This document shows, piece after piece, positions 22,926 through 62,013 of a DNA stretch of 64,000 nt (the first letter of the stretch is position 1; each line of letters begins with the position of its first letter). The translations under genes and the position numbers were made by a program. Below the pieces are notes generated by a model. The model did no database searches. It saw only the letters and a program-made list of their open reading frames with translations, and had not been told where the DNA came from. Source of the stretch: a virus; the IMG/VR virus record IMGVR_UViG_3300033145_000192, positions 62,001 through 126,000 of that record. One strand, given 5' to 3'.

Positions 22926-24076
22926 CAGTTCACCTTCTTCCATTGGTTGTAGTATTTCAAGATTGAATCTCTGAGCCTCGGGCCAATTAGCTCATTGCTA
23001 AAGCCCTCAACTCTTTCCCTAGCAGCCGCTTGCATCTTTGGCCACATAGCCCACTCACCAACATCTCTATGCTGCCATAGGTCAAAGGCGTTCCTCATTG
23101 CTGCTTTCAAATCACAAACATGAGGCTCTCTCCAGTTATCAGCGGCGGTATACATAAACTCATGCGGGTGAGGCATATCACAAACTGGACTGCTATTTGA
23201 AGCAACCAGCCAGCCACATTCATGGTTCACGAAGGCGGCAGGGCCAGTGTGGTCTGTAGCAATCACAGGGAGGCCGTAGCCTAATGCATCGAAGTGTGGG
23301 ACTCCCCACCCCTCTCCTCTTGATGGAAGCGCGTAGCAATCCGCAGTGGCATATAGCCTCTCGATGTCTTCGTGGGACATCACTTCATGGATGAGTTTGA
23401 TTGGTGGATAATTCTTAAGACGCAATATCCCCTTCATGGCATTGATAATTGACAGAATTCTATTGTTTTCCTGCACACCATCTTGTGGCCCCATGTAAAC
23501 CTTGAGGATAAGAACTACTGGGTCCTCTCTAGTAAACTCAGTAAAGTATGCCTTTAGAAGTGGGTCCATTCCCTTCTTCTTCGAATACTGCAAGATAGAC
23601 AAAAACTTGAAGCTATCGTCAGCCCCAGGAAGAACGAATGGCTCTACTTTCTTCTTATACTTGGTCATGTTGAACGAGTATGGAACCACTACGATTGGCT
23701 TAACAACACCACTCTTCTGTGCGGCAATTCTGTTCTGTTCAATTGGCACAAGAACCAAGTCCATTTGATTCAGCATATCAACCCACTGCTTAGGAATCCT
23801 ATCGGTTTCCCAGCAGAATGCGTTAATGTTGAACACTCCATCCTTACGCTCAGTCTCGTTTGGCGTAGTTTGCTGAATAACAATGTCTACGTCCTGCGTG
23901 TCCCTGTTCGCAAGTTTCTTCTCACGCTCACTTCTCTTGTATTCTCCACCATCGTATCTTAGGTCTCTGGTGACGAGATGCATTCCAGCAATATCAAGAG
24001 CCCTAACGTAATTCCTGGCAGCTTCAGCATATCCACTGAAGTCCAAAAGTGGGCCCACATATAGAGTTTTAAGCAT
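22925..24076 (-). CDS. GT-B glycosyltransferase (family 4-like)
   Basis: A 383-residue GT-B protein. LYVGPLLDFSGYAEAARNY is the N-terminal glycine-rich loop, FLSILQYSKKKGMDPLLKAY the start of the donor domain and LPSRGEGWGVPHFDALGYG the conserved nucleotide-sugar site. Length is typical of family 4. ATG at 24076 overlaps the stop of the 572-residue enzyme in a TAATG-like coupling. Confidence 0.88.
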   Translation of the reverse strand: MLKTLYVGPLLDFSGYAEAARNYVRALDIAGMHLVTRDLRYDGGEYKRSEREKKLANRDTQDVDIVIQQTTPNETERKDGVFNINAFCWETDRIPKQWVDMLNQMDLVLVPIEQNRIAAQKSGVVKPIVVVPYSFNMTKYKKKVEPFVLPGADDSFKFLSILQYSKKKGMDPLLKAYFTEFTREDPVVLILKVYMGPQDGVQENNRILSIINAMKGILRLKNYPPIKLIHEVMSHEDIERLYATADCYALPSRGEGWGVPHFDALGYGLPVIATDHTGPAAFVNHECGWLVASNSSPVCDMPHPHEFMYTAADNWREPHVCDLKAAMRNAFDLWQHRDVGEWAMWPKMQAAARERVEGFSNELIGPRLRDSILKYYNQWKKVN

Positions 24077-25794
24077 CAGACTATCATCCCCGGCATAGTA
24101 TTTGTGGAAGAAACACCAGTAGATGTATCAACCTCTATGCCTCTAAGAGCCAAGCTCCGTGTCCATCTAACTTCCTCAAACTTGTTCCTGGCATTTACTT
24201 GGTCACGGAAAAACGCCTCAACATTGTCCCTGGGAGTTCCACCCTTAAGACCACTCATCCAGTCATTCATCCCCTTCTCTTCTGGCTCACGACCAAGGAT
24301 GTTCGTGTAACACCATCTGACGAAAAGCTCATCTGAAATATCGCCCGATGGCCTCTTTGCTGTTACTGACTCAAACTTTGGAGGCTTGTCCCAAGTTGCG
24401 CTTCTCTCAAAAAGCTCAATGTCATTGAGGATTCTCTCAATCTTTTCTCCTGTAAGGTCCCACGAATGCATGCGCTCTGCGCAAGCCCTCGCCTGTGTGG
24501 CCAGCTTCTTCCGCTTATTCTCATCAAACGCCAACAGTTCCATCTTGTTAGCCATATCATCAATGTCTGGCAGAGCCCTAATCGCCTCTGTCTCTGCTTC
24601 GTGATATAGACGCTGAACCTTGATTGGCAATCCACCACCATTCTCTACATGGTCTTCCATCGCGGAGTAGTTCTGATACAAGCCAGCAATTCCACAAGCC
24701 TTTGATTCCATGATTGGAAGTCCCCAGCCCTCACAAATGGCCGGATGGACATAAATGTCTATGATATTGAATAGTTCAATCAGGTCTTCTTCCGACACTC
24801 CACTGTGGGTGCTCGGCATATGTGCGGCCATCTTTCCACACTTCCTGCACGCAGTAGCGCCCTGTGGAGTAGATGGAGCAAACCAATGAACATAGACATA
24901 GTCACAAGCATCGCACTTATAGGTGAAGAGCGTGTGTCTTTGAAGATTGAAATGCTGCACCAGATGCGGAATATTCCACCCCATATCTGGCCAACTGGTG
25001 TGGCAGAATAGCGCACTGTGTTGAATCCTGAGAGCATTAAACTCCTTCGCATCCAGCTTACCACCAGCCTGGACCTTCTTCTTAATCCTGGCTATCTTCT
25101 GTGGGGTGACCCACTTCCTGCGCAGTTGTGCATATGCGTGGAACAAGTCTGGATAGAGCTTACGCTTTTGATTTCTCATCACTGTGCCAAACACAAGTAG
25201 GGTTGGCTTAAGAATAAACTTGTCCCTAATCTCCGTGTGTGGAAGTGGCTTCCATACGTCAAGATTGACACCGGGGGAGGTAACGTCTGCCACCTCGATG
25301 CCATCTGCTTCTAGGACACGTTTGCCGTAGCGACTGTATGTTGAGATTGCGTCGGCCTGTTTGAAGATTCCCTTCACCCACTGCTTCTTTTGTGGTTGAG
25401 AATCTACGGTTGGCATTAGATAAAGCTTGAAGTTGCCACGGAATCTGGAAGCCTGTAGGTGTTCTACCATCCAGGGGTCGCGTGGGTCGAAAACAATATC
25501 TGGCTGGAAATCAGCTAGGATTGCATCAATCTTATACTTGCCAAACTGGTTTTGTGGGTGGCTGTCGTAAATCTTCTTCTCGCCCTCGTTTAGCGGAAGA
25601 ATACCATAGAATTTCCATGGCAACTTCTTACTCTCAGGACATACTGGCGGAGCATACGAACCAACTTCTGCAAGTTCATACTTTCCGGTAGCATGGAGCC
25701 TCTTTAGAAGCTCTCGATTGAAGATTGAAAATCCCGTAGCTAGAAAGCTGGCTTCGCCAGATATTAGAATTCTTTTCTTAGTGGGACTCGTCAT
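24076..25794 (-). CDS. Large GT-B glycosyltransferase with zinc insert and DUF4214-like tail
   Basis: A 572-residue protein with three parts. The GT-B core begins ILISGEASFLATGFSIFNR and contains LLVFGTVMRNQKRKLYPDL and HPAICEGWGLPIMESKACG, the donor site. Inserted in the core near residue 290 is a CDAC...CRKC segment that should bind zinc. The last 100 residues (FVRWCYTNILGREPEEKG...) resemble DUF4214, a domain often found in secreted repeat-bearing proteins and in glycosyltransferases. It is the first enzyme transcribed in the block after the sigma-like gene. The insert and tail make it the most unusual of the glycosyltransferases. Confidence 0.82.
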   Translation of the reverse strand: MTSPTKKRILISGEASFLATGFSIFNRELLKRLHATGKYELAEVGSYAPPVCPESKKLPWKFYGILPLNEGEKKIYDSHPQNQFGKYKIDAILADFQPDIVFDPRDPWMVEHLQASRFRGNFKLYLMPTVDSQPQKKQWVKGIFKQADAISTYSRYGKRVLEADGIEVADVTSPGVNLDVWKPLPHTEIRDKFILKPTLLVFGTVMRNQKRKLYPDLFHAYAQLRRKWVTPQKIARIKKKVQAGGKLDAKEFNALRIQHSALFCHTSWPDMGWNIPHLVQHFNLQRHTLFTYKCDACDYVYVHWFAPSTPQGATACRKCGKMAAHMPSTHSGVSEEDLIELFNIIDIYVHPAICEGWGLPIMESKACGIAGLYQNYSAMEDHVENGGGLPIKVQRLYHEAETEAIRALPDIDDMANKMELLAFDENKRKKLATQARACAERMHSWDLTGEKIERILNDIELFERSATWDKPPKFESVTAKRPSGDISDELFVRWCYTNILGREPEEKGMNDWMSGLKGGTPRDNVEAFFRDQVNARNKFEEVRWTRSLALRGIEVDTSTGVSSTNTMPGMIV

Positions 25795-26140
25795 GCGCGT
25801 CGTAACTCCATTGCCTTATCCTTAGCAACTCCTCAAGCTCCTCAATAGTCATCTTGTTGCAGCCTAGGAGTTTTTCCTTACCAAACCTTTTAAGCTTCTT
25901 GTATTTGAGCAGTAGGTTGAACACCTGAGAATTCAGTGCAAAGGGCTTATGAAGTTTTGCCAGTTCACGAATCATCTCATTAGTAACGCACCTATACAGA
26001 TAGCCCCTAAGATTGCTCCTAACTGTCCTCTTGTTTTTGAGTCCATTAAGCAATCCTATGTATCCTGCCTGTCGAGCATCTTCCCTTAGCCCCTCTGGGA
26101 TATGCCTTATGGCTACATTGATGATATCCTCGTGGTCCAT
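25778..26140 (-). CDS. Truncated sigma70-like protein (sigma region 2 to 3)
   Basis: A 120-residue protein. DARQAGYIGLLNGLKNKRT with NLRGYLYRCVTNEMIREL matches sigma region 2 (usual form DLxQEGxIGLxxAxxxFD...FxxYAxxxIRxxI), and residues 65-105 suit sigma region 3 with the IEELEELLRI helix. There is no region 4, so promoter -35 recognition is not expected unless another protein supplies it. The ATG at 26140 follows GGAGTTCAT and is 18 bases past the terminator hairpin. It sits at the head of the carbohydrate block and could redirect RNA polymerase to it. Alternatives are a sigma-like DNA binder or a degraded remnant. Confidence 0.62.
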   Translation of the reverse strand: MDHEDIINVAIRHIPEGLREDARQAGYIGLLNGLKNKRTVRSNLRGYLYRCVTNEMIRELAKLHKPFALNSQVFNLLLKYKKLKRFGKEKLLGCNKMTIEELEELLRIRQWSYDAHDESH

Positions 26141-26158
26141 ATGAACTCCAGTATTAGA

Positions 26159-26184
26159 TTCGGGGCAGCCGAAGCTACCCCGAA
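26159..26184 (-). terminator. UUCG-capped hairpin, probable terminator or processing site
   Basis: On the minus strand the arms are TTCGGGGTAGC and GCTGCCCCGAA around a TTCG tetraloop, an 11-base-pair stem with one G-U pair. It lies just after the ssb stop and before the sigma-like start. A long T-run does not follow, so it may act as an attenuator or RNA-processing hairpin rather than a full terminator. It marks the border between the replication block and the carbohydrate block. Confidence 0.7.
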
Positions 26185-26197
26185 CCCCTGTCCTATT

Positions 26198-26638
26198 TCA
26201 GAATGGCAGGTCGCTGCCACCAGCATTTGCTGGCGCTGACGCTGGAGCGGAGTCAGGCTGTGCCTGCCCCTGGCCAGCATCCTGGTTAGCATCCTCGCCG
26301 GGCTTATCCTGACGTGGGCGCTCTGCCTGAATTTCACTGGCGTAAATCTTCAGCTTGCTTCTCTTCTGACCTTCCTTGGAGGTCCACTCGTCAGTCTCAA
26401 GCTGGCCTCTGACCATAACTGGAGTGCCCTTCTTGACGTATTGCGAAGCATAGTCGGCTCTTTGATTCCAAACCTCACAGTCGATATATGTGGCCTTTTC
26501 ATCATATGTGCCATCACGCTTCTTGATTCTACGGTTAGAAACAAGCCTGAATGTGGCAACGCGAGATTCTCCAACGCTCTTCAACTCTACGTCCTTAACT
26601 GCACGCCCTAGGAAACGAACTTCATTGAGGTAAAACAT
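26198..26638 (-). CDS. ssb: Single-stranded DNA-binding protein (SSB)
   Basis: A 146-residue OB-fold SSB. LNEVRFLGRAVKDVELKSV, the ATFRLVSNR strand, YIDCEVWNQRADYASQYVKKG and VMVRGQLETDEW are the family's conserved strands. A Gln/Pro/Ala-rich flexible linker follows, and the chain ends in DLPF, the acidic tip through which bacterial SSBs bind partner proteins. The start at 26638 follows AAGGAGAAGTGTA. A promoter-like pair just upstream at 26687-26714 suggests additional expression of ssb on its own. Confidence 0.95.
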   Translation of the reverse strand: MFYLNEVRFLGRAVKDVELKSVGESRVATFRLVSNRRIKKRDGTYDEKATYIDCEVWNQRADYASQYVKKGTPVMVRGQLETDEWTSKEGQKRSKLKIYASEIQAERPRQDKPGEDANQDAGQGQAQPDSAPASAPANAGGSDLPF

Positions 26639-26686
26639 TACACTTCTCCTTACAAATATTGAACCAACTACGGTCCATGTGGCTTG

Positions 26687-26714
26687 ATTATAGGCTGCTG
26701 AAAATCAAAGTAAA
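26687..26714 (-). promoter_or_regulatory. ssb: Candidate sigma70-type promoter upstream of ssb
   Basis: On the minus strand TTTACT (-35 box) and TATAAT (-10 box) are 16 bases apart, in the 83-base gap between dnaE-C and ssb. The -10 box is a perfect consensus and the -35 box matches four of six positions. This would allow ssb, and perhaps the genes past the hairpin, to be transcribed independently. Confidence 0.55.
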
Positions 26715-26721
26715 GCCCAAA

Positions 26722-28308
26722 TCAAAGGTGGTCAATTGCCCTGACCAAAAAGCTGTCCCGGTCTTTCTTACCAGTAATCAGCACAGGCTTGCCTTCTTCG
26801 ATAATCCAGCCAATCCTGTTGTAGATACTAGAGAATACCACTACTGAATCAATCATGTAGGTTTCATCAGATACGGTCAGGAAGCACATTTCATTGTGAT
26901 TCTTGTCCTTAATCTTACGAACCTTCTCGATTACGACACCGATACAACCATCGGTCTTGTTTCTAAGTTTGCCCATGTTTTTGAGCTTGATGTTCACTCT
27001 TGGGTTGTAATGGAGGTCTACTAGGCTTCCAGATAGTGGAATACCGAGATAATACTTCTCCCATGCAATGCACATCTTCTTTGGTGTGCCGCCAAGTTCA
27101 CGGGCAACCTCTCCAATTGCTTCCTTGATTCTTGGCTTTCTCGACTTGTTTGGAACCTTTGAATCCATCAGGTTATTCAGGGCCTCATTAAGTGAGGACC
27201 CATCATCTAGCTGACTGAACATAAAGTCTCGCTCACGCTTTGTGAGAATACCGAAGACCTTATACCACGACAAGAGCCTGACTCTGTGTGGTGTCATGTA
27301 GTCTAAAGCACCAGATTTAATCAGTGCTATGACCACACCCTTGTTGACCTTAGTTCCTTCTCCAAATGCCTTTCTGAGAAATTCTACATCTCCCTTTGCA
27401 TCTGCAATCTTCGCTAATGCCTTTAGCGCACTCTTTCCAACTCCCTTGATATGACCAAGGCCAAAGGCTATCGTAGCACCATCAACGATGTCGAAGTCGT
27501 GGTTCAACTTCTTCAGACATGGCGGCTGAACAGTGATATTAAATAGCCTAGCCTCATGCACAAGCTCTTGAATTTCTTCCAACGAATCCTGCTTACTATC
27601 AGAGTTCGTCAACATGGCCTTAAAGAACTGTAGCGGATAGTGGCACTTTGCGTATGCCGTCTTGTAACCAATCATGGCATACGACACACCATGAGATTTA
27701 TTGAAGCCATAGCCACTGAACTTGGAAATCCAGCCAAAGATGGTCTCAGCAATCTCAGGGTCATGCCCTCTAGCTGCGGCTCCAGCAAGGAACTTCTCCT
27801 TTACTATGGCCATCACATCTTCTTTTTTCTTACCAACAGCCTTTCGGGCTACGTCAGCTTCCTTTAGCGAGAACCCAGCAAAGTCGGTGCAGATACGCAT
27901 GATTTGCTCTTGGTAAATCGGCACGCCATTGGTGTCACAAAAGATTGGCTCAAGCACCGGATGAATATATTCCGGCTCCCATTCTCCATTCCGAACTTTG
28001 ATATAGCTGTGGGTGATGGATGAGAACTCACCAGGTTTGTCTGGCTTCTCTCGATACTCGGCCTCAAGACATCCTGGCCTGATAAGCGACACAACGTCAC
28101 TTAGCTCCTCAATGTCTCTAGGCTTTACTTCTCTAGCATACCTCTTTCCAAGGTTACCTTCAAGCTGAAAAACACCCTTTGTGTATCCAGTGCCTATTAG
28201 GTCCCAGGTCGGGCCATCATCAAGAGGAATTTCCGCAAAGTCTAGCTTTGTTTTCTTGGCTTTAAGCGCCAGCGTCTTTTCTCTTCTTTCCTCTGCTTCA
28301 CTTTTCAT
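26722..28308 (-). CDS. dnaE: DNA polymerase III alpha subunit (DnaE), C-terminal half
   Basis: A 528-residue protein equal to the part of DnaE that follows the palm: the fingers (GVFQLEGNLGKRY, VVSLIRPG, YQEQIMRI, AKCHYPLQFFKAML), helix-hairpin-helix (GLGHIKGVGKSALKAL) and the OB-fold near the C-terminus (GVVIEKVRKIKDKNHNEM). The catalytic aspartates are not here; they are in the gene at 30061-31854. It has its own ATG at 28308 overlapping the tdk stop. Neither gene shows an intein-like end, so the two chains probably assemble non-covalently. Confidence 0.93.
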   Translation of the reverse strand: MKSEAEERREKTLALKAKKTKLDFAEIPLDDGPTWDLIGTGYTKGVFQLEGNLGKRYAREVKPRDIEELSDVVSLIRPGCLEAEYREKPDKPGEFSSITHSYIKVRNGEWEPEYIHPVLEPIFCDTNGVPIYQEQIMRICTDFAGFSLKEADVARKAVGKKKEDVMAIVKEKFLAGAAARGHDPEIAETIFGWISKFSGYGFNKSHGVSYAMIGYKTAYAKCHYPLQFFKAMLTNSDSKQDSLEEIQELVHEARLFNITVQPPCLKKLNHDFDIVDGATIAFGLGHIKGVGKSALKALAKIADAKGDVEFLRKAFGEGTKVNKGVVIALIKSGALDYMTPHRVRLLSWYKVFGILTKRERDFMFSQLDDGSSLNEALNNLMDSKVPNKSRKPRIKEAIGEVARELGGTPKKMCIAWEKYYLGIPLSGSLVDLHYNPRVNIKLKNMGKLRNKTDGCIGVVIEKVRKIKDKNHNEMCFLTVSDETYMIDSVVVFSSIYNRIGWIIEEGKPVLITGKKDRDSFLVRAIDHL

Positions 28309-28874
28309 CTATCCTGCTCCCAGCACTTAAAGCACCTTGGTTCATACAATTCGGCACCACCAACAGCAACCTGCTCGGTGCTCCCATCTTTCCTAAATGT
28401 CCTCGTGGCAGCATGGAGCGTTTTACACTCAGCACACACAGCCTTGAGATTTATTATGTTGTCCGCAACTGCTAGGAGAGAAGGCATTGCGCCAAATGGC
28501 CTACCTTCCGAGTCTTGTGACAGTCCAGCACAGATGACCTCGTAACCCCACGAGCATACCATTTTGGATACCAACGTCTCGAAGCTCTTCACGTCAAAGA
28601 ACTGAGCCTCATCGAAGATGATAACGTCTACTGGGTGTGCTGGCTGTATCTTACGAATGATTTCAAAGCATCCACCTGGCTCATCCTTGTTCAAGATAAA
28701 CGCCGGGAACTGGTGTTTGTCATGCGTAAGAATAAGGCTAGCAGACTCATACCTTGTGTCATTTGATGGCTTGAATCCAACCACCATCTTACCAGCGACA
28801 ACATTGGCGAGGGCTAATGAAATCAGCCTAGAAGTCTTCCCCGCGAACATTGGCCCGTTAATGACTGTCAGCAT
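28305..28874 (-). CDS. tdk: Thymidine kinase (type II)
   Basis: A 189-residue thymidine kinase that salvages thymidine for DNA synthesis. VINGPMFAGKTSRLI is the P-loop, IIFDEAQFFDV the Walker B motif, and CAECKTLHA with CFKCW supply four cysteines for structural zinc. YEPRCFK near the end suits the family. It is one of four genes separating the two dnaE halves. Together with thyX and dut it gives the phage its own dTTP supply. Confidence 0.95.
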   Translation of the reverse strand: MLTVINGPMFAGKTSRLISLALANVVAGKMVVGFKPSNDTRYESASLILTHDKHQFPAFILNKDEPGGCFEIIRKIQPAHPVDVIIFDEAQFFDVKSFETLVSKMVCSWGYEVICAGLSQDSEGRPFGAMPSLLAVADNIINLKAVCAECKTLHAATRTFRKDGSTEQVAVGGAELYEPRCFKCWEQDR

Positions 28875-29092
28875 TACTTCTCTCCAAGTTCCTTACCGTA
28901 TGTCTTCTTGAACCAGTCTCCAGCCCTAACCTTCGGCATACCAAAGGTGGCACCAGGAGCTATAATCCTTCGACATAGTCCAATGCATCTGGAATCTTCG
29001 CAGTTGTATAGAATCTTCGCATCGTGTGACATTGGAAGCTTTAAGCTGTATTTGGCTTTACACCTCTCACACTTGTATACGTAGTTAGGCAC
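28874..29092 (-). CDS. FmdB-like zinc-ribbon protein (72 aa)
   Basis: A 72-residue protein beginning MPNYVYKCERCKAKY with a second CEDSRCIGLCRR stretch, the layout of the FmdB/zinc-ribbon regulator family (YxYxCxxCxxxFE...C). The start is a GTG at 29092 overlapping the previous stop by 8 bases. The function of phage members is not established; some may bind DNA. Small proteins of this kind are frequent in phage replication blocks. Confidence 0.68.
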   Translation of the reverse strand: MPNYVYKCERCKAKYSLKLPMSHDAKILYNCEDSRCIGLCRRIIAPGATFGMPKVRAGDWFKKTYGKELGEK

Positions 29093-29564
29093 AAATTACC
29101 ACCACTTCATATGGAACACCATCGCCAACAATCTTATCGAGACTGACCAGCGCAAGGTGGAACTTCTTCCTGTCTCCACCCTTCTTTACTGTCACATTGG
29201 ATGGTTCAAGAATATACTCGCGCAGCTTGCCTAACTCGAACTTGTAAATGTTCCTAGACTCGCCCGCCGGAACTACATAGTAGACATCGTGTGCCTTGGT
29301 CCCAAGCATACCAGTGAGCTTCTTGCCATTAGAAAGTTCAAAACAAAGGTTTCCGGTCTTCTCAGCCATGACATCGAACTTCACTTCAATGTCTACTGGC
29401 GTGCCATCAAGCCCGTTTGGGTATGACCGAATATCGCCATGCTCCTGTTCCTTCTTGCCCTCAAGTTCATGACACGTAATGTCATTGTCTACGAGGTGGT
29501 CCATCACAATCTCGACTGCTTCCTGTGAAAGTGCTAAGTCTTTCCTAAATGAGTAATGCGCCAT
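29085..29564 (-). CDS. Hypothetical protein, possible PD-(D/E)XK nuclease
   Basis: A 159-residue protein I do not recognise with certainty. A GDIRSYPNG...VDIEVKFD stretch near residues 43-65 suits the PD-(D/E)XK nuclease core, with the aspartate of GDIR and the Glu-x-Lys of IEVK, followed by MAEKTGNLCFEL as seen in some phage nucleases of this fold. No catalysis has been shown, so this is a fold-level guess. It lies between dut and the zinc-ribbon gene inside the dnaE interval. Confidence 0.5.
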   Translation of the reverse strand: MAHYSFRKDLALSQEAVEIVMDHLVDNDITCHELEGKKEQEHGDIRSYPNGLDGTPVDIEVKFDVMAEKTGNLCFELSNGKKLTGMLGTKAHDVYYVVPAGESRNIYKFELGKLREYILEPSNVTVKKGGDRKKFHLALVSLDKIVGDGVPYEVVVICA

Positions 29565-29579
29565 TTTCAGTGCTCCAAG

Positions 29580-30074
29580 CTATTGTTTTCCTGTGCTTCC
29601 AAATCCACCATCTCCACGAAGCGTTGCATCAAGGTCATCCACTGAAGCAAACATCGCTTGAGGTGCCTTCTTCAAAACAAACTGAGCAATACGCTCATTG
29701 GCTTCAATCGCATACGGCTCTTCGGTGTTGTTGTGCAACAGCACCATGCACGGCCCGCGATAGCCAGAATCAATTGTGCCAGGAGAGTTGGCGACTACAA
29801 TGCCGCGCTTTGCTAGTCCACTCCTAGAACGAACTTGTATCTCCCAGCCCTTCGGGATTGCCATGCGGAAGCCTAGCGAAATTAGCTTTGTTTCTCCAGG
29901 CGCAAGAAAGTATCCGCCCTTTTTAACAATAGCTGAGTTACCACTAGACTGGCCGGTATAGCGTCCAGACTCATTGACTGGGTTCTGGATAGCTCGAACA
30001 TCGGCACCCGCATCTCCAGCATGCTTATACTCTGGCAGACTGCCGCCCTCTAGTTTTACCTTAACCAGTTCCAT
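29580..30074 (-). CDS. dut: dUTPase (trimeric type)
   Basis: A 164-residue dUTP pyrophosphatase that converts dUTP to dUMP, limiting uracil in DNA and feeding thymidylate synthesis. The five motifs are visible: AGDAGADVRA (motif 1), VRSRSGLAKRG (motif 2), SPGTIDSGYRG (motif 3), ANERIAQFVL (motif 4) and RGDGGFGSTGK at the C-terminus (motif 5). The ATG at 30074 follows GGAGGAGG and overlaps the end of dnaE-N by 14 bases; earlier starts at 30170 would sit inside dnaE-N. Confidence 0.95.
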   Translation of the reverse strand: MELVKVKLEGGSLPEYKHAGDAGADVRAIQNPVNESGRYTGQSSGNSAIVKKGGYFLAPGETKLISLGFRMAIPKGWEIQVRSRSGLAKRGIVVANSPGTIDSGYRGPCMVLLHNNTEEPYAIEANERIAQFVLKKAPQAMFASVDDLDATLRGDGGFGSTGKQ

Positions 30075-31854
30075 TGATTTCCTCCTCCATGTCACCGAGC
30101 ACGTCCATAGTTTTGAGACCAAGGACATCCATTTTAACGTATCCCATACCATCAAGAGTCTCACCATCATACTCGGTGATTTTGACCTTGTCCTTCGTGT
30201 CCCACCTTAGCGGAACGCCACCATTCTCGAATGGCTCATCGGAAATAATCAAACCAGCGGCATGCTTGCCTCTACTCTTCTGGCAACCTTGTAGTTTCTT
30301 AGCAATCCTAAATAGCCTCGGATGCTTCTTTTCGTATTCCTGTAGTCTCTCAGAGTTCTCTAGTGCCTTCTCGATTGTCTTTGCCTTGAGACCAACCAAA
30401 CGTGTCATTACGTTGGCGTCCTCAAAGCTCATTCCATTCTTCCCTAGCACCTTCGCAACGTCCTTCAGCACTGCCTTTGGCATCAGTCTATTGAACGTGA
30501 CCATCTGGGCAACCCTATCCTCACCGAACCTATCTCGGATGTAGTTGATTACCTTTCCACGATTCTTCTTAGAGAAGTCCATGTCGATGTCAGCAAGTGA
30601 GCCCTTACGCCCAGCGTTGTAGAACCTTTCCCAAATCAAACCGAATTTAATCGGCTCAATCTCGGTGATGCTCAAGCAATAAGACACCAGAGAGCCAGCA
30701 GCACTACCTCTGCCTGGTCCCACCGAAATCCCCTCACTGCGAGCCCAACTAACAATGTCCCAAACAATGAGGAAATAGTCGGCCAGCCCCGCGTCTTTGA
30801 TGTCGGCCATCTCTTTTGCGATGCGAGCCTGGTATACTTCTGACGCATCTCCCAGTCTATGTCCGAATACCATCCCATAGCCATCCTCCACTAGTTTTTC
30901 TAAATACTGGAATGAATCGAAACGGATATCTGGAATGAATGCATACTTCGGTAGATGCATCTTCTTCTCAATCTCAACGTCCCCGATTCTATCTACGACC
31001 TCAAGGGTAGCCTCTAGTTCATGTTGAAGCAGACTGGTCATCCTCTGCTCGTTGTTCTCTGTGGTTAGAGGCTCGCCAAGAATATGGTGAGCATCCTTCA
31101 GCCAATACTCTCGTGTTGAGTAGTATGGACGGAATCCACGGCCCTTTCCATATCCGATTGGAGTATCAAACGTGTGGCCAGTTCTGATTGCCCAAATGCC
31201 CTCGTGTGCCTCTACGTCTTCTTTGTCGATGTAATGGGAATCAATCGTTCCAACGCACTTCATATCCAGCTTACGACCCATTAGACGCAATGCCTGGTTA
31301 ACTTCCGGCTGGACATCTAGTCCACCGTCTTGAACTTCTAGGTAGAGTCTATCACCGAAAATCCCTCTGAGCATGACGAGATTCTTCATTGCCTCGTCGA
31401 AGTCCTTCTCAGCTAGGTTGTAAGGCACGATTCCCTTAAGGCAGCCGGTCAGACAGATGATGCCATCCGAGTGAAGGGTAAGGTCTTTGTAGTCGATGCG
31501 CGGCACGTAGTAGAACTTCTCGTTCGCCTTCGTCGTTAGCTTCTTTATGTTAATCCAGCCTTCTGCATTCATTGCTAGAAGAACTAGGTGGTGGGCCAAC
31601 CTTTTCTTGTCGGCCCTAGACTGCTCTGCATCAGCGACCATATAGAACTCAGATGCGAAGATTGGCTTAATCCCCTGCTTCTTGCACTCTCTGAAGAACT
31701 CAGGAACTCCAGCGATTGTGCCGTGGTCAGTAAGTGCAATTGCCTTATGACCAAACTCCAATGCTCGCTTAACAAGCTGTGGAATCTTGGCAATAGCGTC
31801 GAGTTCGCTATAAGTGCTGTGAGTGTGGAGGTGGGCCATTTCAACTTTTTTCAT
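30061..31854 (-). CDS. dnaE: DNA polymerase III alpha subunit (DnaE), N-terminal half with PHP domain
   Basis: A 597-residue protein carrying the PHP domain (1-280) and palm (about 290-597) of DnaE. The PHP metal ligands look intact: His10, His12, Asp19, His44, Glu69, a His at 88/89, Cys138, Asp205 and His207. The palm has GPGRGSAAGSLV (379-390), the catalytic DIDMDF motif (422-427) and the third aspartate in VKMDVLG (576). The chain ends GDMEEEINGTG immediately before the finger domain that continues in the separate gene at 26722-28308. The start at 31854 has AAGGTG seven bases upstream. An intact PHP site can give proofreading in relatives such as mycobacterial DnaE1. Confidence 0.94.
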   Translation of the reverse strand: MKKVEMAHLHTHSTYSELDAIAKIPQLVKRALEFGHKAIALTDHGTIAGVPEFFRECKKQGIKPIFASEFYMVADAEQSRADKKRLAHHLVLLAMNAEGWINIKKLTTKANEKFYYVPRIDYKDLTLHSDGIICLTGCLKGIVPYNLAEKDFDEAMKNLVMLRGIFGDRLYLEVQDGGLDVQPEVNQALRLMGRKLDMKCVGTIDSHYIDKEDVEAHEGIWAIRTGHTFDTPIGYGKGRGFRPYYSTREYWLKDAHHILGEPLTTENNEQRMTSLLQHELEATLEVVDRIGDVEIEKKMHLPKYAFIPDIRFDSFQYLEKLVEDGYGMVFGHRLGDASEVYQARIAKEMADIKDAGLADYFLIVWDIVSWARSEGISVGPGRGSAAGSLVSYCLSITEIEPIKFGLIWERFYNAGRKGSLADIDMDFSKKNRGKVINYIRDRFGEDRVAQMVTFNRLMPKAVLKDVAKVLGKNGMSFEDANVMTRLVGLKAKTIEKALENSERLQEYEKKHPRLFRIAKKLQGCQKSRGKHAAGLIISDEPFENGGVPLRWDTKDKVKITEYDGETLDGMGYVKMDVLGLKTMDVLGDMEEEINGTG

Positions 31855-32077
31855 TTTTCAACACCTTAAATCTTACTTCTATCTCTGAGTCATCTAAGAA
31901 TAGCGGCTCTGTGTGCCATGCTGGAGTCTCTAGGCAATTATCATAGGTTACGCCAGCCAGCTTGTAACCGTTGATTACTCGTCTGGCTGTGTTTGCGTAT
32001 ATCCAAATGTTATGCCACTCACTCGTCAGTCTGAACAGGTATCTCGGGTGTGTATTCACCGCCCCTGTGGATTTCAT
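31841..32077 (-). CDS. Hypothetical protein (78 aa)
   Basis: A small ORF that bridges the space between the iron-sulfur nuclease gene and dnaE-N and overlaps both. It has no recognisable domain; the body is mixed alpha/beta in outline with WHNIWIYANTARRVINGYKL near the middle. An in-frame GTG at 32059 with GGGG just upstream is an alternative start that shortens the overlap with the nuclease gene. Accepted because it fills an otherwise empty 165-base space and ends in a coupled stop/start. Confidence 0.5.
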   Translation of the reverse strand: MKSTGAVNTHPRYLFRLTSEWHNIWIYANTARRVINGYKLAGVTYDNCLETPAWHTEPLFLDDSEIEVRFKVLKNEKS

Positions 32078-33116
32078 TGTGCCCCCTACAAGCGTAAGTC
32101 ATTTTGTCTACACTGTTTATCCTCACTGCGTCGGGATTTTCTACCCGCAGACCGCCGTGACAAGGGTTCTCGTCTCCTTCCATCCTACATGAGATAATAG
32201 GTAGACTGAATTGTCTGTCAACGGTGAATTTATTACGAATCTTGCCACACGCTTCCCACCCGATGCAATAGTTGCAAAGCCAACTCTTTATCCTGAGAGG
32301 GTTTACGTTTCTCGTGATTTGATTCCAGTTGTTCTTGAGACTTTTAACCGTCAGTTCGTTCATCTCTGTTGTGATTGGAACTGTGACTGGACCTTTTCTC
32401 AGGAACCACAAGGTAACAAGGACGTATTTGTATTGAGGGTATAGCTGAGAGATAATCTTGCCATACAGCCTAACCTGTGGGTCCTTGTAAGCTGCCGCAT
32501 AGCTCATCGCCCTGCCGCCAGTCTTGTAGTCAACGACCTCAATCGTGTCGGCATCCTCTTCAACTGCTAGGTCAAGGAAGGCCCGAAGCGGAATTCCATC
32601 TATCTCGCCATCGAACTTGAGTTCTACGCCCAATATCTTCTTCTTGAAATCTCCATCCTTATTGCGGTTCAAGACCTGGCAATCCTTCGACTTGATGGCA
32701 CCTTCGACTAGAGCAAGGTCATCATCGTAGTTGACACGAGGACATCCATCAACAATGCCCACTGGGACTGACAAAATAGAACATTCGCCACCCTTGGTCA
32801 TGTGCGGACAAAGTTCACAGTTCTTCGCTTGTGGGTAAGGGTCTCCACGCTCAGGCTTTCGGTCGTCCAGAAGCCAGAGGCGATGCTCGACATAGTAGTC
32901 ACGCAGCGTTTTTACGTAATCAATTTCGGCATTCTCTTCTTTCCCGAGAACCGCATTTACCCACTGCTCAAGCACCTCATGAACGGCAGAGCCCTTGTGA
33001 GTATAGATGTTTCCCTTCCTGGTCTCAGGAATCTTGAGATGATACTCGATAAAGTATTTCATCTCACATTGCTTGTTTGTCTTGATTCTAGAAGCACTTG
33101 CTGCTGACATATCCAT
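32019..33116 (-). CDS. PD-(D/E)XK exonuclease, AddB/Cas4 iron-sulfur type
   Basis: A 365-residue RecB-family nuclease. The core is visible: His46 in GSAVHEVLEQW, Asp182 in FLDLAVEED and the EVVDYKTGG motif with Asp196 and Lys198. Cys17 in NKQCEMKYF plus C281, C284 and C290 in CNYCIGWEAC give the C...C-x2-C-x5-C layout that binds an iron-sulfur cluster in AddB and Cas4. More cysteines near residues 100-125 and at the C-terminus may bind zinc. Such phage nucleases process DNA ends in replication and recombination; recA lies in the same block. There is no adjacent cas1 or cas2, so it is not part of a CRISPR system. Confidence 0.85.
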   Translation of the reverse strand: MDMSAASASRIKTNKQCEMKYFIEYHLKIPETRKGNIYTHKGSAVHEVLEQWVNAVLGKEENAEIDYVKTLRDYYVEHRLWLLDDRKPERGDPYPQAKNCELCPHMTKGGECSILSVPVGIVDGCPRVNYDDDLALVEGAIKSKDCQVLNRNKDGDFKKKILGVELKFDGEIDGIPLRAFLDLAVEEDADTIEVVDYKTGGRAMSYAAAYKDPQVRLYGKIISQLYPQYKYVLVTLWFLRKGPVTVPITTEMNELTVKSLKNNWNQITRNVNPLRIKSWLCNYCIGWEACGKIRNKFTVDRQFSLPIISCRMEGDENPCHGGLRVENPDAVRINSVDKMTYACRGHNEIHRGGEYTPEIPVQTDE

Positions 33117-33161
33117 TGTTATGTTTCTCCTAACCTATCCTGCATAGTTCCCGCGCCGACC

Positions 33162-33776
33162 TCAACTATTAGTTCCGAAAACTGCTGGGCAGTGCGCCCT
33201 CAATGTTTCCTGAGCATCATTCATAATCTCTTGAATCTGCGGGTGAGCCCTTGGATTCTCTGACGTTCGGAGAGAGAACACATGGAGCCATTCTCTAAAG
33301 TTGCACGTCATCACTATTTCCGTCTTAAGACAGTTCGGCAAAACCGAGCGAGCTATCTGTGGTGACTCACCTATCTGGAGTAGCATCAAGTAGGCAGCTT
33401 CGGCCTGCTCACATGCATTCTTCCAGACACTAGCACCGTCTTCTGTTTGTAGTGGCGGCTCAATAAACTTGACCTGTCCACCGAACTTTGTCTTGCCATA
33501 GTTGCAGTAACGAGTGCTCTCCTGGCTGTATGCTGCAAGTCTATGACGCACCATCTCGTGTGTAACTCCTCTGTCACACACAAACCTAAAGGAAGCAGAG
33601 CCATGCTCAAGAACTGACCAGTGCCCCATGTCCTTAATCTTCTTGACAAACTTGACTGCGGAGCTAGGAGTAATCTTGTCTTCCGATTTGTAACAAGTCC
33701 TACCGGCGGCTTCAATCACTTGTTCGGGATTAGGTGTTATCCATACCAATGTAGCAGATGGTTTCACTATTAACAT
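33162..33776 (-). CDS. thyX: Flavin-dependent thymidylate synthase (ThyX)
   Basis: A 204-residue ThyX, which makes dTMP from dUMP using FAD, NADPH and methylenetetrahydrofolate. The signature RHR-x7-S is present as RHRLAAYSQES (77-87), with EHGSASFRF upstream and NWLHVFSLR-like residues near the C-terminus (written here as EWLHVFSLR). Length is close to the usual 215-250. Following dut in the pathway, it takes dUMP to dTMP. The stop overlap with the neighbouring gene is 7 bases at 33770-33776. Confidence 0.96.
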   Translation of the reverse strand: MLIVKPSATLVWITPNPEQVIEAAGRTCYKSEDKITPSSAVKFVKKIKDMGHWSVLEHGSASFRFVCDRGVTHEMVRHRLAAYSQESTRYCNYGKTKFGGQVKFIEPPLQTEDGASVWKNACEQAEAAYLMLLQIGESPQIARSVLPNCLKTEIVMTCNFREWLHVFSLRTSENPRAHPQIQEIMNDAQETLRAHCPAVFGTNS

Positions 33777-34408
33777 GTCGATTCCTTTGTAAAGGGGTCC
33801 TTTGCATTAGGATGCTTGTCAACGATGGCAGCAGCCTTTTTATTAAACTCTGCTAGGAGTTCAATTGGTAGCGACGGTGGCCTGTCGTCAACCCACTTCT
33901 TTACCATCATAGCATCCCGGAGAACCATAAGGCTAGCAATCGCCTTAATAATGTGGTTCAGTCCGCTGTCTGGGTCAATGTCCTGGCCAAAGTCCCACCA
34001 TGCGGTGAGATGTCTAAATGCTGCATCGTGATATACAGAGGCCCTTACGCCCTTAATTCTATAGTTGTGCCTACCATACTTTCTCGCACCTTCAAGCATT
34101 GCTAGGCCAAGCTCCAGCATCACACCATTGGATACTGTGCTAATCGGAGCCTTCCTGACACCAACTGCATCCTTCGGATTTGTGTCCTTGATGCTTTGCG
34201 ACAACTTGGAATCCCTCATCTCCTTGATGGTTGGTGCGTTCCGCTTATTCTCTTCAATCATCTCTTTACGAGCATGCTCGAATTCTTCCGCAGACATCTG
34301 TGGACCTCCACCAAGACACATAGGAATATCTTCATCGTTGTTCACGGGGCCAGGAAGGTCCCTATCCTTCTTCCATCCATACTCACCGTGGGTAAGACCG
34401 TCGCCCAT
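33770..34408 (-). CDS. dATP/dGTP diphosphohydrolase N-terminal-like protein (DUF5664 family)
   Basis: A 212-residue protein of the phage family annotated as dATP/dGTP diphosphohydrolase N-terminal domain. Matching segments are DTNPKDAVGVRKAPISTV, GLAMLEGARKYGRHNYRIKG, ASVYHDAAFRHLTAWWDFGQDIDPDSG and HIIKAIASLMVLRDA. The first 60 residues are a divergent, charged N-terminus. The name comes from family knowledge; the activity in this protein is not proven. Its role would be to trim the dNTP pool. It is coupled to the nucleotidase gene upstream by a TAATG overlap. Confidence 0.8.
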   Translation of the reverse strand: MGDGLTHGEYGWKKDRDLPGPVNNDEDIPMCLGGGPQMSAEEFEHARKEMIEENKRNAPTIKEMRDSKLSQSIKDTNPKDAVGVRKAPISTVSNGVMLELGLAMLEGARKYGRHNYRIKGVRASVYHDAAFRHLTAWWDFGQDIDPDSGLNHIIKAIASLMVLRDAMMVKKWVDDRPPSLPIELLAEFNKKAAAIVDKHPNAKDPFTKESTC

Positions 34409-34986
34409 TATACCAACTCCTCAGCTTCAAGGAACTCAGACCAATCGCACACTCTGGTAAACCAGCCTAGCGAATCGTCTAGCTTTCTGTTGTAGGGCGC
34501 GTCCATGCAATACACGGTAGCCCTTGTTCCAGTAGTGATTTGCTCGACAGTCTTCGGACTGTCATCAATGAATACGTCCACGCCAAGCTCTTGAATGATT
34601 GGGGCCTTATTTCCCTTGGCAAAGATGATGTTGGCCTTTGGAAAGCCAGCTTCTTCGATAGCATCAATCGTGTCTTGTCTGGCATACTCTGGCCTATTTG
34701 TGATGAACACAATCTCGTGACCAGCAGCGACAATGATGTCTAGGGCAGCCAGCGTCCCTGGCAGAATTTCTAAGTTCCTGTAGCCATGGCCAGCCATACC
34801 AAACCTATCGAACTCTTTCCAGAAAGTAGCTTCTGATAGTCCGTCAATGCACTCATGCCAATAGTATGATGTAATCTCTTCATACTTATACTCAACGCCA
34901 CATGTCCTTTGGAGCCATGCGCCGAACAAACTCATGAAGTCGAAACAAACACCATCCAGGTCAACTCCGTATCTCTTCTTTGACAT
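34408..34986 (-). CDS. 5'(3')-deoxyribonucleotidase-like HAD phosphatase
   Basis: A 192-residue haloacid dehalogenase-fold protein. YGVDLDGVCFDF is motif I with the nucleophilic DxD, IVFITNRPEYAR is motif II and VFIDDSPKTVEQI is motif III. The cap segment between motifs I and II suits the NT5C family, which dephosphorylates deoxynucleoside monophosphates. Placed next to the diphosphohydrolase-like gene, thyX and dut, it is probably part of the nucleotide-pool set. It overlaps the primase gene by 26 bases. Confidence 0.8.
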   Translation of the reverse strand: MSKKRYGVDLDGVCFDFMSLFGAWLQRTCGVEYKYEEITSYYWHECIDGLSEATFWKEFDRFGMAGHGYRNLEILPGTLAALDIIVAAGHEIVFITNRPEYARQDTIDAIEEAGFPKANIIFAKGNKAPIIQELGVDVFIDDSPKTVEQITTGTRATVYCMDAPYNRKLDDSLGWFTRVCDWSEFLEAEELV

Positions 34987-38300: not shown

Positions 38301-39338
38301 TTAGTCAGCAAGAAGTTCTTTGGTTTGCTTGATGATTCCATCTCTAAACTCCTTGTTGTTCCTAATTAGGTCCAACATAAATGCTTCGCGCTTCCTGACT
38401 CCCTCTGGATTCTCCTCGTTAACGAGGGTATACCAGCCCTTGTTGTAGTCAATGATACATAGGTCTCTAGCTAACTGTAGTAGGTCGAGTCCCTTGTCAA
38501 TTCCATGACCATACATAATCGGAACTGATACTTCCCTAAATGGCCTAGCCATGTTGTTCTTCATAACACGACAAATGGTCATCTGGCCAACGATATCACC
38601 CTTAGCATCCTTGATGAGATGAGAGTTCAGTCTCTTCAGCCTAACGATTTGTGATGCCATGTCACCAACAGCCTTACCACCCTTCTTGGTGTCACCAGAG
38701 GCGTAGGGATTTAGATTGGATGTCAGGTGAGAGATAAACAGGATGGTGCAGCGGTTTCTTTCCGCTGGACCAAGCGTCTTTCTGACCATCTTCCAACACA
38801 AGCGAGCTACCAATCCCATTGTTTGCTTCTCTGCACCCTCTGCATCCTCAACTTCTGGAAGCATGGCAGTGATGCTATCAAACACAACGAGACAGCCTGG
38901 GACCTCCGTTACGCACTTATGGACCATGTTTACCGCTTCTTCGCCGGTATCTGGTCTAATACGCACGAACATCTTTCTGGCCTCAGCCTTCTTCAGTCCA
39001 CGAATCATATTGATTTGGGACTCACGCAGCTTACGCTCAACATCGAAATAGAATACTGGCTTGCCCATCTGAATGGCATTTGCCGCAACTTCTAGAGCGA
39101 ATGTGCTCTTGCCAGTTGAGTGGTCACCGTAGATTTCATTAGCGGACCCTTCGATGAACGGAACACCGAGGGCCCAATCTAGCTTGACGGAACCAGTAGA
39201 AATGGACGCAAGGTCGCCGTCCTTGATGTCTGGTCCGACACAGACTTTGCCGGACCACTCCTTGAAAATGCTCTCCTGAAAGCCAATGATATCCTCAAGG
39301 CTTAGGGGCTTAGTGCTTAGGTCTTTTTTCTTCGCCAT
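38301..39338 (-). CDS. recA: RecA recombinase
   Basis: A 345-residue RecA-family recombinase. Walker A is GDHSTGKST (71-79), Walker B is CLVVFDSITAML and the L2-like region follows. FYFDVERKLRES matches the conserved catalytic-glutamate segment. Length is typical of bacterial RecA (about 350). ATG at 39338 overlaps the mazG stop. It would pair broken or replicating phage DNA with the help of SSB and the nucleases in this block. Confidence 0.94.
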   Translation of the reverse strand: MAKKKDLSTKPLSLEDIIGFQESIFKEWSGKVCVGPDIKDGDLASISTGSVKLDWALGVPFIEGSANEIYGDHSTGKSTFALEVAANAIQMGKPVFYFDVERKLRESQINMIRGLKKAEARKMFVRIRPDTGEEAVNMVHKCVTEVPGCLVVFDSITAMLPEVEDAEGAEKQTMGLVARLCWKMVRKTLGPAERNRCTILFISHLTSNLNPYASGDTKKGGKAVGDMASQIVRLKRLNSHLIKDAKGDIVGQMTICRVMKNNMARPFREVSVPIMYGHGIDKGLDLLQLARDLCIIDYNKGWYTLVNEENPEGVRKREAFMLDLIRNNKEFRDGIIKQTKELLAD

Positions 39339-39724
39339 TAAGAGTCTGCTCTGGCGTCAATCTTGAGTCTCTTGGCTCTCAGTTTCTTGCTGCCTGTATC
39401 AAGTAGGGTGGACAGCGGAATATCGAACTGCTCTGCCATAAGGAATGCCACGTTAATGACATCTCCCAACTCTTCTGTCATGCGGCCTAGTGGCGAAACA
39501 CCGGCATCGCGGAGCTTCTTTACCTTCCTGCGGCTACCCTGTTGTGCCAGGATGGCCTCAGAAAGCTCGCCAACCTCTTCTGACAACTTCGTCATGTAAT
39601 ACAGCTTGTTGTTTGGCCTATGGCGGTTCTTCCTGTAGGTCTCAAGCTCATCAATGTATGTGGCCATGTGAAGGGCGGTCTTGGTCTTTTCCTCTAGGTT
39701 GGGCTTAAATGCTTCGTTTCTCAT
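39338..39724 (-). CDS. mazG: MazG-like nucleotide pyrophosphohydrolase
   Basis: A 128-residue single-domain MazG-like protein. KLSEEVGELSEAIL and MTEELGDVINVAF form the ExxE...ExxD metal site of the all-alpha NTP pyrophosphatases. Cellular MazG lowers NTPs or ppGpp, and phage versions are thought to adjust the nucleotide pool. It overlaps the upstream hypothetical gene by 20 bases. Confidence 0.9.
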   Translation of the reverse strand: MRNEAFKPNLEEKTKTALHMATYIDELETYRKNRHRPNNKLYYMTKLSEEVGELSEAILAQQGSRRKVKKLRDAGVSPLGRMTEELGDVINVAFLMAEQFDIPLSTLLDTGSKKLRAKRLKIDARADS

Positions 39725-61960: not shown

Positions 61961-62013
61961 TTTCTACTCCCTCCGAATTAGGACTGCTGATGTCTAAAAC
62001 CACTGGCTACTTG

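Follow-up and report, generated by a model that had tools for sequence, protein, structure and literature searches.

A phage family C DNA polymerase encoded by two separated genes that divide it at the palm–fingers boundary

Can a DnaE polymerase work in two pieces? Family C polymerases, which copy bacterial chromosomes, are known as single chains. The question is raised by a 64,000-nucleotide stretch (the window; positions 62,001–126,000) of the 177,375-bp linear virus record IMGVR_UViG_3300033145_000192. A preliminary description of the window had proposed a DnaE divided between two genes with four others between them, and both open reading frames (ORFs), here called dnaE_N and dnaE_C, were found as described (Table 1). 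We consider it likely, with a probability of about 85%, that the phage makes a two-subunit family C replicative polymerase from halves that are assembled non-covalently.

The domain content of the two proteins was assigned using Pfam. dnaE_N was matched by PHP (PF02811) and DNA_pol3_alpha (PF07733), and dnaE_C by the DnaE finger domain (PF17657) and HHH_6 (PF14579), with an OB-fold match (PF01336) below the cutoff. Positions 40–615 of the phage DnaE family PHROG 405 were matched by dnaE_N and positions 618–1081 by dnaE_C; in an alignment with Taq DnaE, dnaE_N stops at residue 630 and dnaE_C begins at residue 634. Single-chain models were calculated using AlphaFold2 (pLDDT 90 for dnaE_N and 86 for dnaE_C). 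On one chain of Taq DnaE (2hpi) the predicted dnaE_N fold covers residues 5–639 and the predicted dnaE_C fold residues 639–1121. The long match of dnaE_C to 2hpi has a large root-mean-square deviation (about 11 Å), which probably reflects a different placement of the HhH and OB parts; the fingers-containing part alone gave 3.7 Å over 317 residues against chain 5lew. In both sequence and fold the two proteins meet end to end on DnaE, with neither a gap nor an overlap, and both alignments and the fold match abut directly before the fingers, where the preliminary description had put the break. Of the parts of bacterial DnaE, only the tau-binding C-terminal domain (CTD) is absent, dnaE_C ending at about E. 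coli residue 1073 in the fold alignment; the protein is thus a family C DnaE, but not one of full DnaE1 architecture (PHP, Pol3, HhH2, OB, CTD). Each half was found once in the 177,375-bp record.

All three catalytic aspartates (Asp422, Asp424 and Asp576) were located in dnaE_N, again in agreement with the earlier claim, and no split relative that was checked has lost them. In the alignments the most conserved motifs of the fingers half are preserved as well, and this half includes the Arg/Lys helix that faces the incoming nucleotide in solved DnaEs. With the aspartates and the fingers on different proteins, polymerisation by either one alone is not expected, to judge from solved DnaEs. The dN/dS values against the relative L001 (0.042 for dnaE_N and 0.051 for dnaE_C) indicate strong purifying selection on both halves. 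The metal-binding signature HHDHEH[C/H]DH serves as the criterion for an active PHP exonuclease (PMC12926913). It is intact in the window as HHDHEHCDH (H10, H12, D19, H44, E69, H89, C138, D205 and H207) and in every split relative without a DnaQ gene between the halves. In the three contigs with such a DnaQ, most of the set is lost in L156, the cysteine is changed to alanine in L162 and L157 fits the pattern; these three contigs fit the idea that proofreading by PHP is traded for proofreading by DnaQ.

The same division was found in other phages. The order dnaE_N–dut–nuclease–zinc ribbon–tdk–dnaE_C is present in ten other phage contigs at 93% to about 50% identity (L023 lacks tdk, and contig L022 stops inside the nuclease gene, so that no C half is seen in it). 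A sister group (L064, L066 and L067; about 40% identity) is cut at the same place; its nuclease gene precedes dnaE_C, and otherwise there are small ORFs only. The nuclease is the sole inter-half gene common to this group and the window clade. Five more divergent contigs share the cut with other genes between: a zinc-ribbon protein in L151, a macro-domain protein and a uracil-DNA glycosylase in L154, a DnaQ-like 'DNA polymerase exonuclease subunit' in L156 and L157, and a glycosylase and a DnaQ-like protein in L162. Because homologues in ten other contigs have the same arrangement, the split goes far beyond chance, and from the sequences it has the look of a stable, functional design and not of gene breakage or faulty sequencing. 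The preliminary description had set a single frame in other isolates as the evidence to the contrary; the opposite was seen, every close relative being split. L064 (JANQNF010000016.1) is itself a 176-kb contig from a bin labelled 'archaeon' that carries, besides the split DnaE of phage type, an SSB and a RecB-like nuclease, and may be a misbinned phage.

Taken together, these features suggest the following mechanism. Both halves would be read from one series of closely packed genes whose starts and stops overlap. dnaE_N would provide the palm and thumb with all three catalytic aspartates and a PHP domain that is probably an active zinc-dependent 3'–5' proofreading exonuclease, and dnaE_C the fingers, the tandem HhH and the OB fold. 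The halves should join non-covalently at the natural domain boundary between palm and fingers. We infer assembly, polymerase activity and PHP proofreading from sequence.

The explanations that compete with a non-covalent polymerase were weighed against these observations. Covalent rejoining by a split intein, RNA trans-splicing or translational bypass has a precedent in cyanobacterial DnaE, and several relatives carry inteins inside their dnaE halves. These are complete inteins. In dnaE_N of L003 and L026 they read GPGRG/C...HN/S and include a LAGLIDADG endonuclease; in dnaE_C of L003, L023 and L036 they read FNK/C...SN/S, with FNR for FNK in L023. L003 has one in each half. They sit away from the split and would splice in cis. 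The ends of the N halves (EINGTG, EINGSTS and EINGAA) and the starts of the C halves have no intein residues, the halves consist of extein-like sequence only, each of them is read from a start codon to a stop codon of its own, conserved genes spanning about 1.8–2.8 kb separate them, and no intron or other RNA element was matched in Rfam at E values up to 1 over positions 24000–34500. FNKSH is found at residue 202 of dnaE_C, and the FNK motif is thus not at the break; the earlier statement that this is not the cyanobacterial split-intein arrangement therefore holds. Nothing in the sequences points to covalent rejoining, which we regard as very improbable. Slightly less credible still is that the split reflects misassembly or a pseudogene in decay. 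The record does come from metagenomic assembly, but the same arrangement in contigs of several other metagenomes already refutes this explanation, and a dN/dS of about 0.04–0.05 for both halves speaks against decay. The halves might instead no longer form a polymerase and do separate jobs as separate proteins, one for instance as a PHP exonuclease and the other in DNA binding. A PHP domain can be an exonuclease by itself, and assembly of the halves is a prediction; against this, the palm aspartates are invariant, the fingers half retains its most conserved motifs, both halves evolve equally slowly and no other polymerase was found in the record (Pfam models of PolA and PolB were negative across its 177 kb, with positive controls run). 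This explanation is the least improbable of the three, though still improbable.

The origin of the split was addressed using trees of the aligned halves (LG+G4), in which 19 split contigs and seven one-piece DnaEs form one subfamily with full support; one-piece DnaEs are present in lineages related to the split ones. The mycobacteriophages MrMiyagi, Fowlmouth and Cuke are cut at the same site, with halves that overlap by 4 nt and nothing between. A fission shared with them was rejected (p-AU 5.7e-8), and the one-piece DnaE of Indlulamithi is their sister or near relative; the mycobacteriophage fission is therefore independent, and there have been at least two cuts at the palm–fingers boundary. 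Rossellomorea phage phiT1 is also split at this site, with a 49-aa ORF between halves 0.15 kb apart, and a shared fission was not rejected (p 0.22). Free-standing homing endonuclease genes lie between the halves in two relatives (GIY-YIG/NUMOD3 in L006 and LAGLIDADG in L036); none was found between the halves in the window. The sequences suggest that a phage DnaE subfamily underwent an old gene fission, after which genes were gained and lost in the gap. A homing endonuclease is plausible as the agent of fission given the endonucleases between the halves in L006 and L036, and these, together with the endonuclease domains of the inteins, mark the locus as a target of homing elements. An origin of the fission in ordinary rearrangement or an internal stop–start mutation, with genes landing later and no homing endonuclease involved, has only a little less than an even chance: MrMiyagi, Fowlmouth and Cuke are cut with nothing between, Indlulamithi has one gene and phiT1 has only its 49-aa ORF, but endonucleases do lie between the halves in L006 and L036 and endonuclease-bearing inteins inside the halves.

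Several points weigh against the proposed polymerase and its history. Pairing and activity of the halves are matters of inference; the record is linear and perhaps incomplete, so that the phage might conceivably have a second polymerase; a single clade of all 19 splits of the subfamily is borderline (p-AU 0.052); and homing endonucleases were found between the halves in only the two relatives named.

A further feature distinguishes some of the split fingers halves. Nine of them (L006, L032, L033, L036, L151, L154, L156, L157 and L162) start with CxC, mostly as F-x-C-G-C, followed by a third cysteine in the place of the second Asp of the window IPLDD motif. Where the third position could be aligned, the cysteines are all present or all absent. 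CxC was found in the same stretch in 0 of 145 distinct one-piece DnaEs (raw counts, uncorrected for relatedness). The window dnaE_C has no CxC and has a predicted helical extension. RPGC was also considered as a split-specific cysteine motif and was rejected, being found in 15 fused DnaEs too. A metal site at the new N-terminus of the fingers half would be a guess from these sequences. A wider proposal is that one ancient fission made the subfamily obligately two-subunit, that the gap serves as a slot for replication and nucleotide-pool genes (dut, tdk, nuclease, uracil-DNA glycosylase and DnaQ proofreader) and that the new end of the fingers subunit gained the CxC...C, read as a metal-site-like element peculiar to split DnaEs, which helps to hold the halves together; we consider it doubtful.

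The genes around the split form a tight minus-strand series (Table 1). Annotation bore out the four genes that had been reported between the halves, with the start of dut corrected: it is most likely the ATG at 30074, which lies within the end of dnaE_N and overlaps its last 14 nt. No Pfam match was obtained for the 159-aa nuclease-like protein. tdk and dnaE_C overlap at an ATGA that combines the dnaE_C start ATG with the tdk stop TGA, and this start codon of dnaE_C itself is preceded by a Shine–Dalgarno-like stretch (GGGAGC). ssb, directly downstream, is close to dnaE_C in most relatives too. The wider neighbourhood encodes ThyX, a dATP/dGTP diphosphohydrolase-like protein, a 5'-nucleotidase, primase, DnaB helicase, RecA, MazG and SSB. 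Pfam models of DnaQ-type exonuclease, beta clamp and clamp loader gave no match in the record (positive controls run). Two side observations were made in the window: a dense nucleotide-pool cluster, which could accompany unusual DNA bases, and a protein with sigma-70 region 2 only that adjoins ssb and is kept in many relatives.

Table 1. Coordinates of features in the window and in related sequences.
Feature	Sequence	Positions	Strand	Remarks
dnaE_N	Window	30061–31854	minus	597 aa; PHP + palm + thumb
Asp422 codon	Window	30589–30591	minus	Catalytic, dnaE_N; invariant in alignments
Asp424 codon	Window	30583–30585	minus	Catalytic, dnaE_N
Asp576 codon	Window	30127–30129	minus	Catalytic, dnaE_N
dut, dUTPase	Window	29580–30074	minus	PF00692, phrog_135; start placed as in L001
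PD-(D/E)XK-like nuclease	Window	29085–29564	minus	159 aa; invariant D44 ... E60-x-K62 (alignment)
Zinc ribbon	Window	28874–29092	minus	72 aa, GTG start; PF09723, E 6e-4, below cutoff; conserved in relatives
tdk, thymidine kinase	Window	28305–28874	minus	PF00265, phrog_592
dnaE_C	Window	26722–28308	minus	528 aa; fingers + HhH + OB
ssb	Window	26198–26638	minus	PF00436
Sigma-70 region 2 protein	Window	25778–26140		120 aa
Nucleotide-pool cluster	Window	33162–34986, 39338–39724		thyX, PF18909 dATP/dGTP diphosphohydrolase-like, NT5C nucleotidase, MazG
Inteins inside split halves	L003	2027–5200, 7221–9689
Intein inside split half	L026	8720–11956
Intein inside split half	L023	13037–15445
Intein inside split half	L036	8965–11358
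GIY-YIG/NUMOD3 homing endonuclease	L006	3306–4016		Free-standing, between halves
LAGLIDADG homing endonuclease	L036	7768–8409		Free-standing, between halves
DnaQ-like exonuclease	L156	5691–6368		Between halves
DnaQ-like exonuclease	L157	6228–6923		Between halves
DnaQ-like exonuclease	L162	6159–6923		Between halves
One-piece DnaE	OR599646.1	28012–31143		Pectobacterium phage PcaP2EGY; annotated as hypothetical protein only

The arrangement was compared with known systems. Cyanobacterial split-intein DnaE also has two genes for DnaE, but is cut beside the FNK motif and rejoined by protein trans-splicing; the window protein is cut between palm and fingers, with no intein. The dnaE genes of MrMiyagi, Fowlmouth, Cuke and phiT1, known from annotation only, have the same break as the window, immediately before the IPLDD motif, with halves that are adjacent or 0.15 kb apart, unlike those of the window. 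Microbacterium phage Dauntless and Gordonia phage LittleFella have two adjacent dnaE genes cut after the PHP domain instead, and two DnaE-like genes have been noted in cluster EF Microbacterium phages (PMC13080520). A phage replicative polymerase from two genes is also represented by the family B gp43 (43A/43B) of the T4-related Aeromonas phages 25 and 44RR, the halves of which co-purify and are active (PMC2988022). There the spacer is a homing endonuclease or an untranslated stretch; in the window four metabolic genes take that place and are retained over a wide clade. The NrdA of phage Aeh1, split by insertion of mobE, is fully functional (PMC2988022). It is likewise a phage enzyme in pieces, but a ribonucleotide reductase with one insertion and the endonuclease still present. 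By analogy with split gp43 and Aeh1 NrdA, the halves of the window DnaE most likely assemble non-covalently. A one-piece DnaE was also noted in Pectobacterium phage PcaP2EGY (Table 1).

Two-gene DnaEs are already on record for a few phage isolates, as annotation alone, and the theme of genes in pieces is known from T4-like gp43 and Aeh1 nrdA. No paper that describes a divided phage DnaE, where it is broken or how widely the break is conserved was found in the open-access literature searched, which is weak evidence of novelty. The CxC...C at the start of split fingers halves, seen in the sequences, is a new detail. To our knowledge, the known natural two-gene DnaE is rejoined by an intein. The present DnaE seems to function as two pieces, and the domain boundary between them has been cut independently in at least one other phage lineage. 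This makes it testable whether palm and fingers require a covalent link, offers biochemistry subunits that can be handled separately and hints at a rule for the sites at which fission of a polymerase is tolerated.

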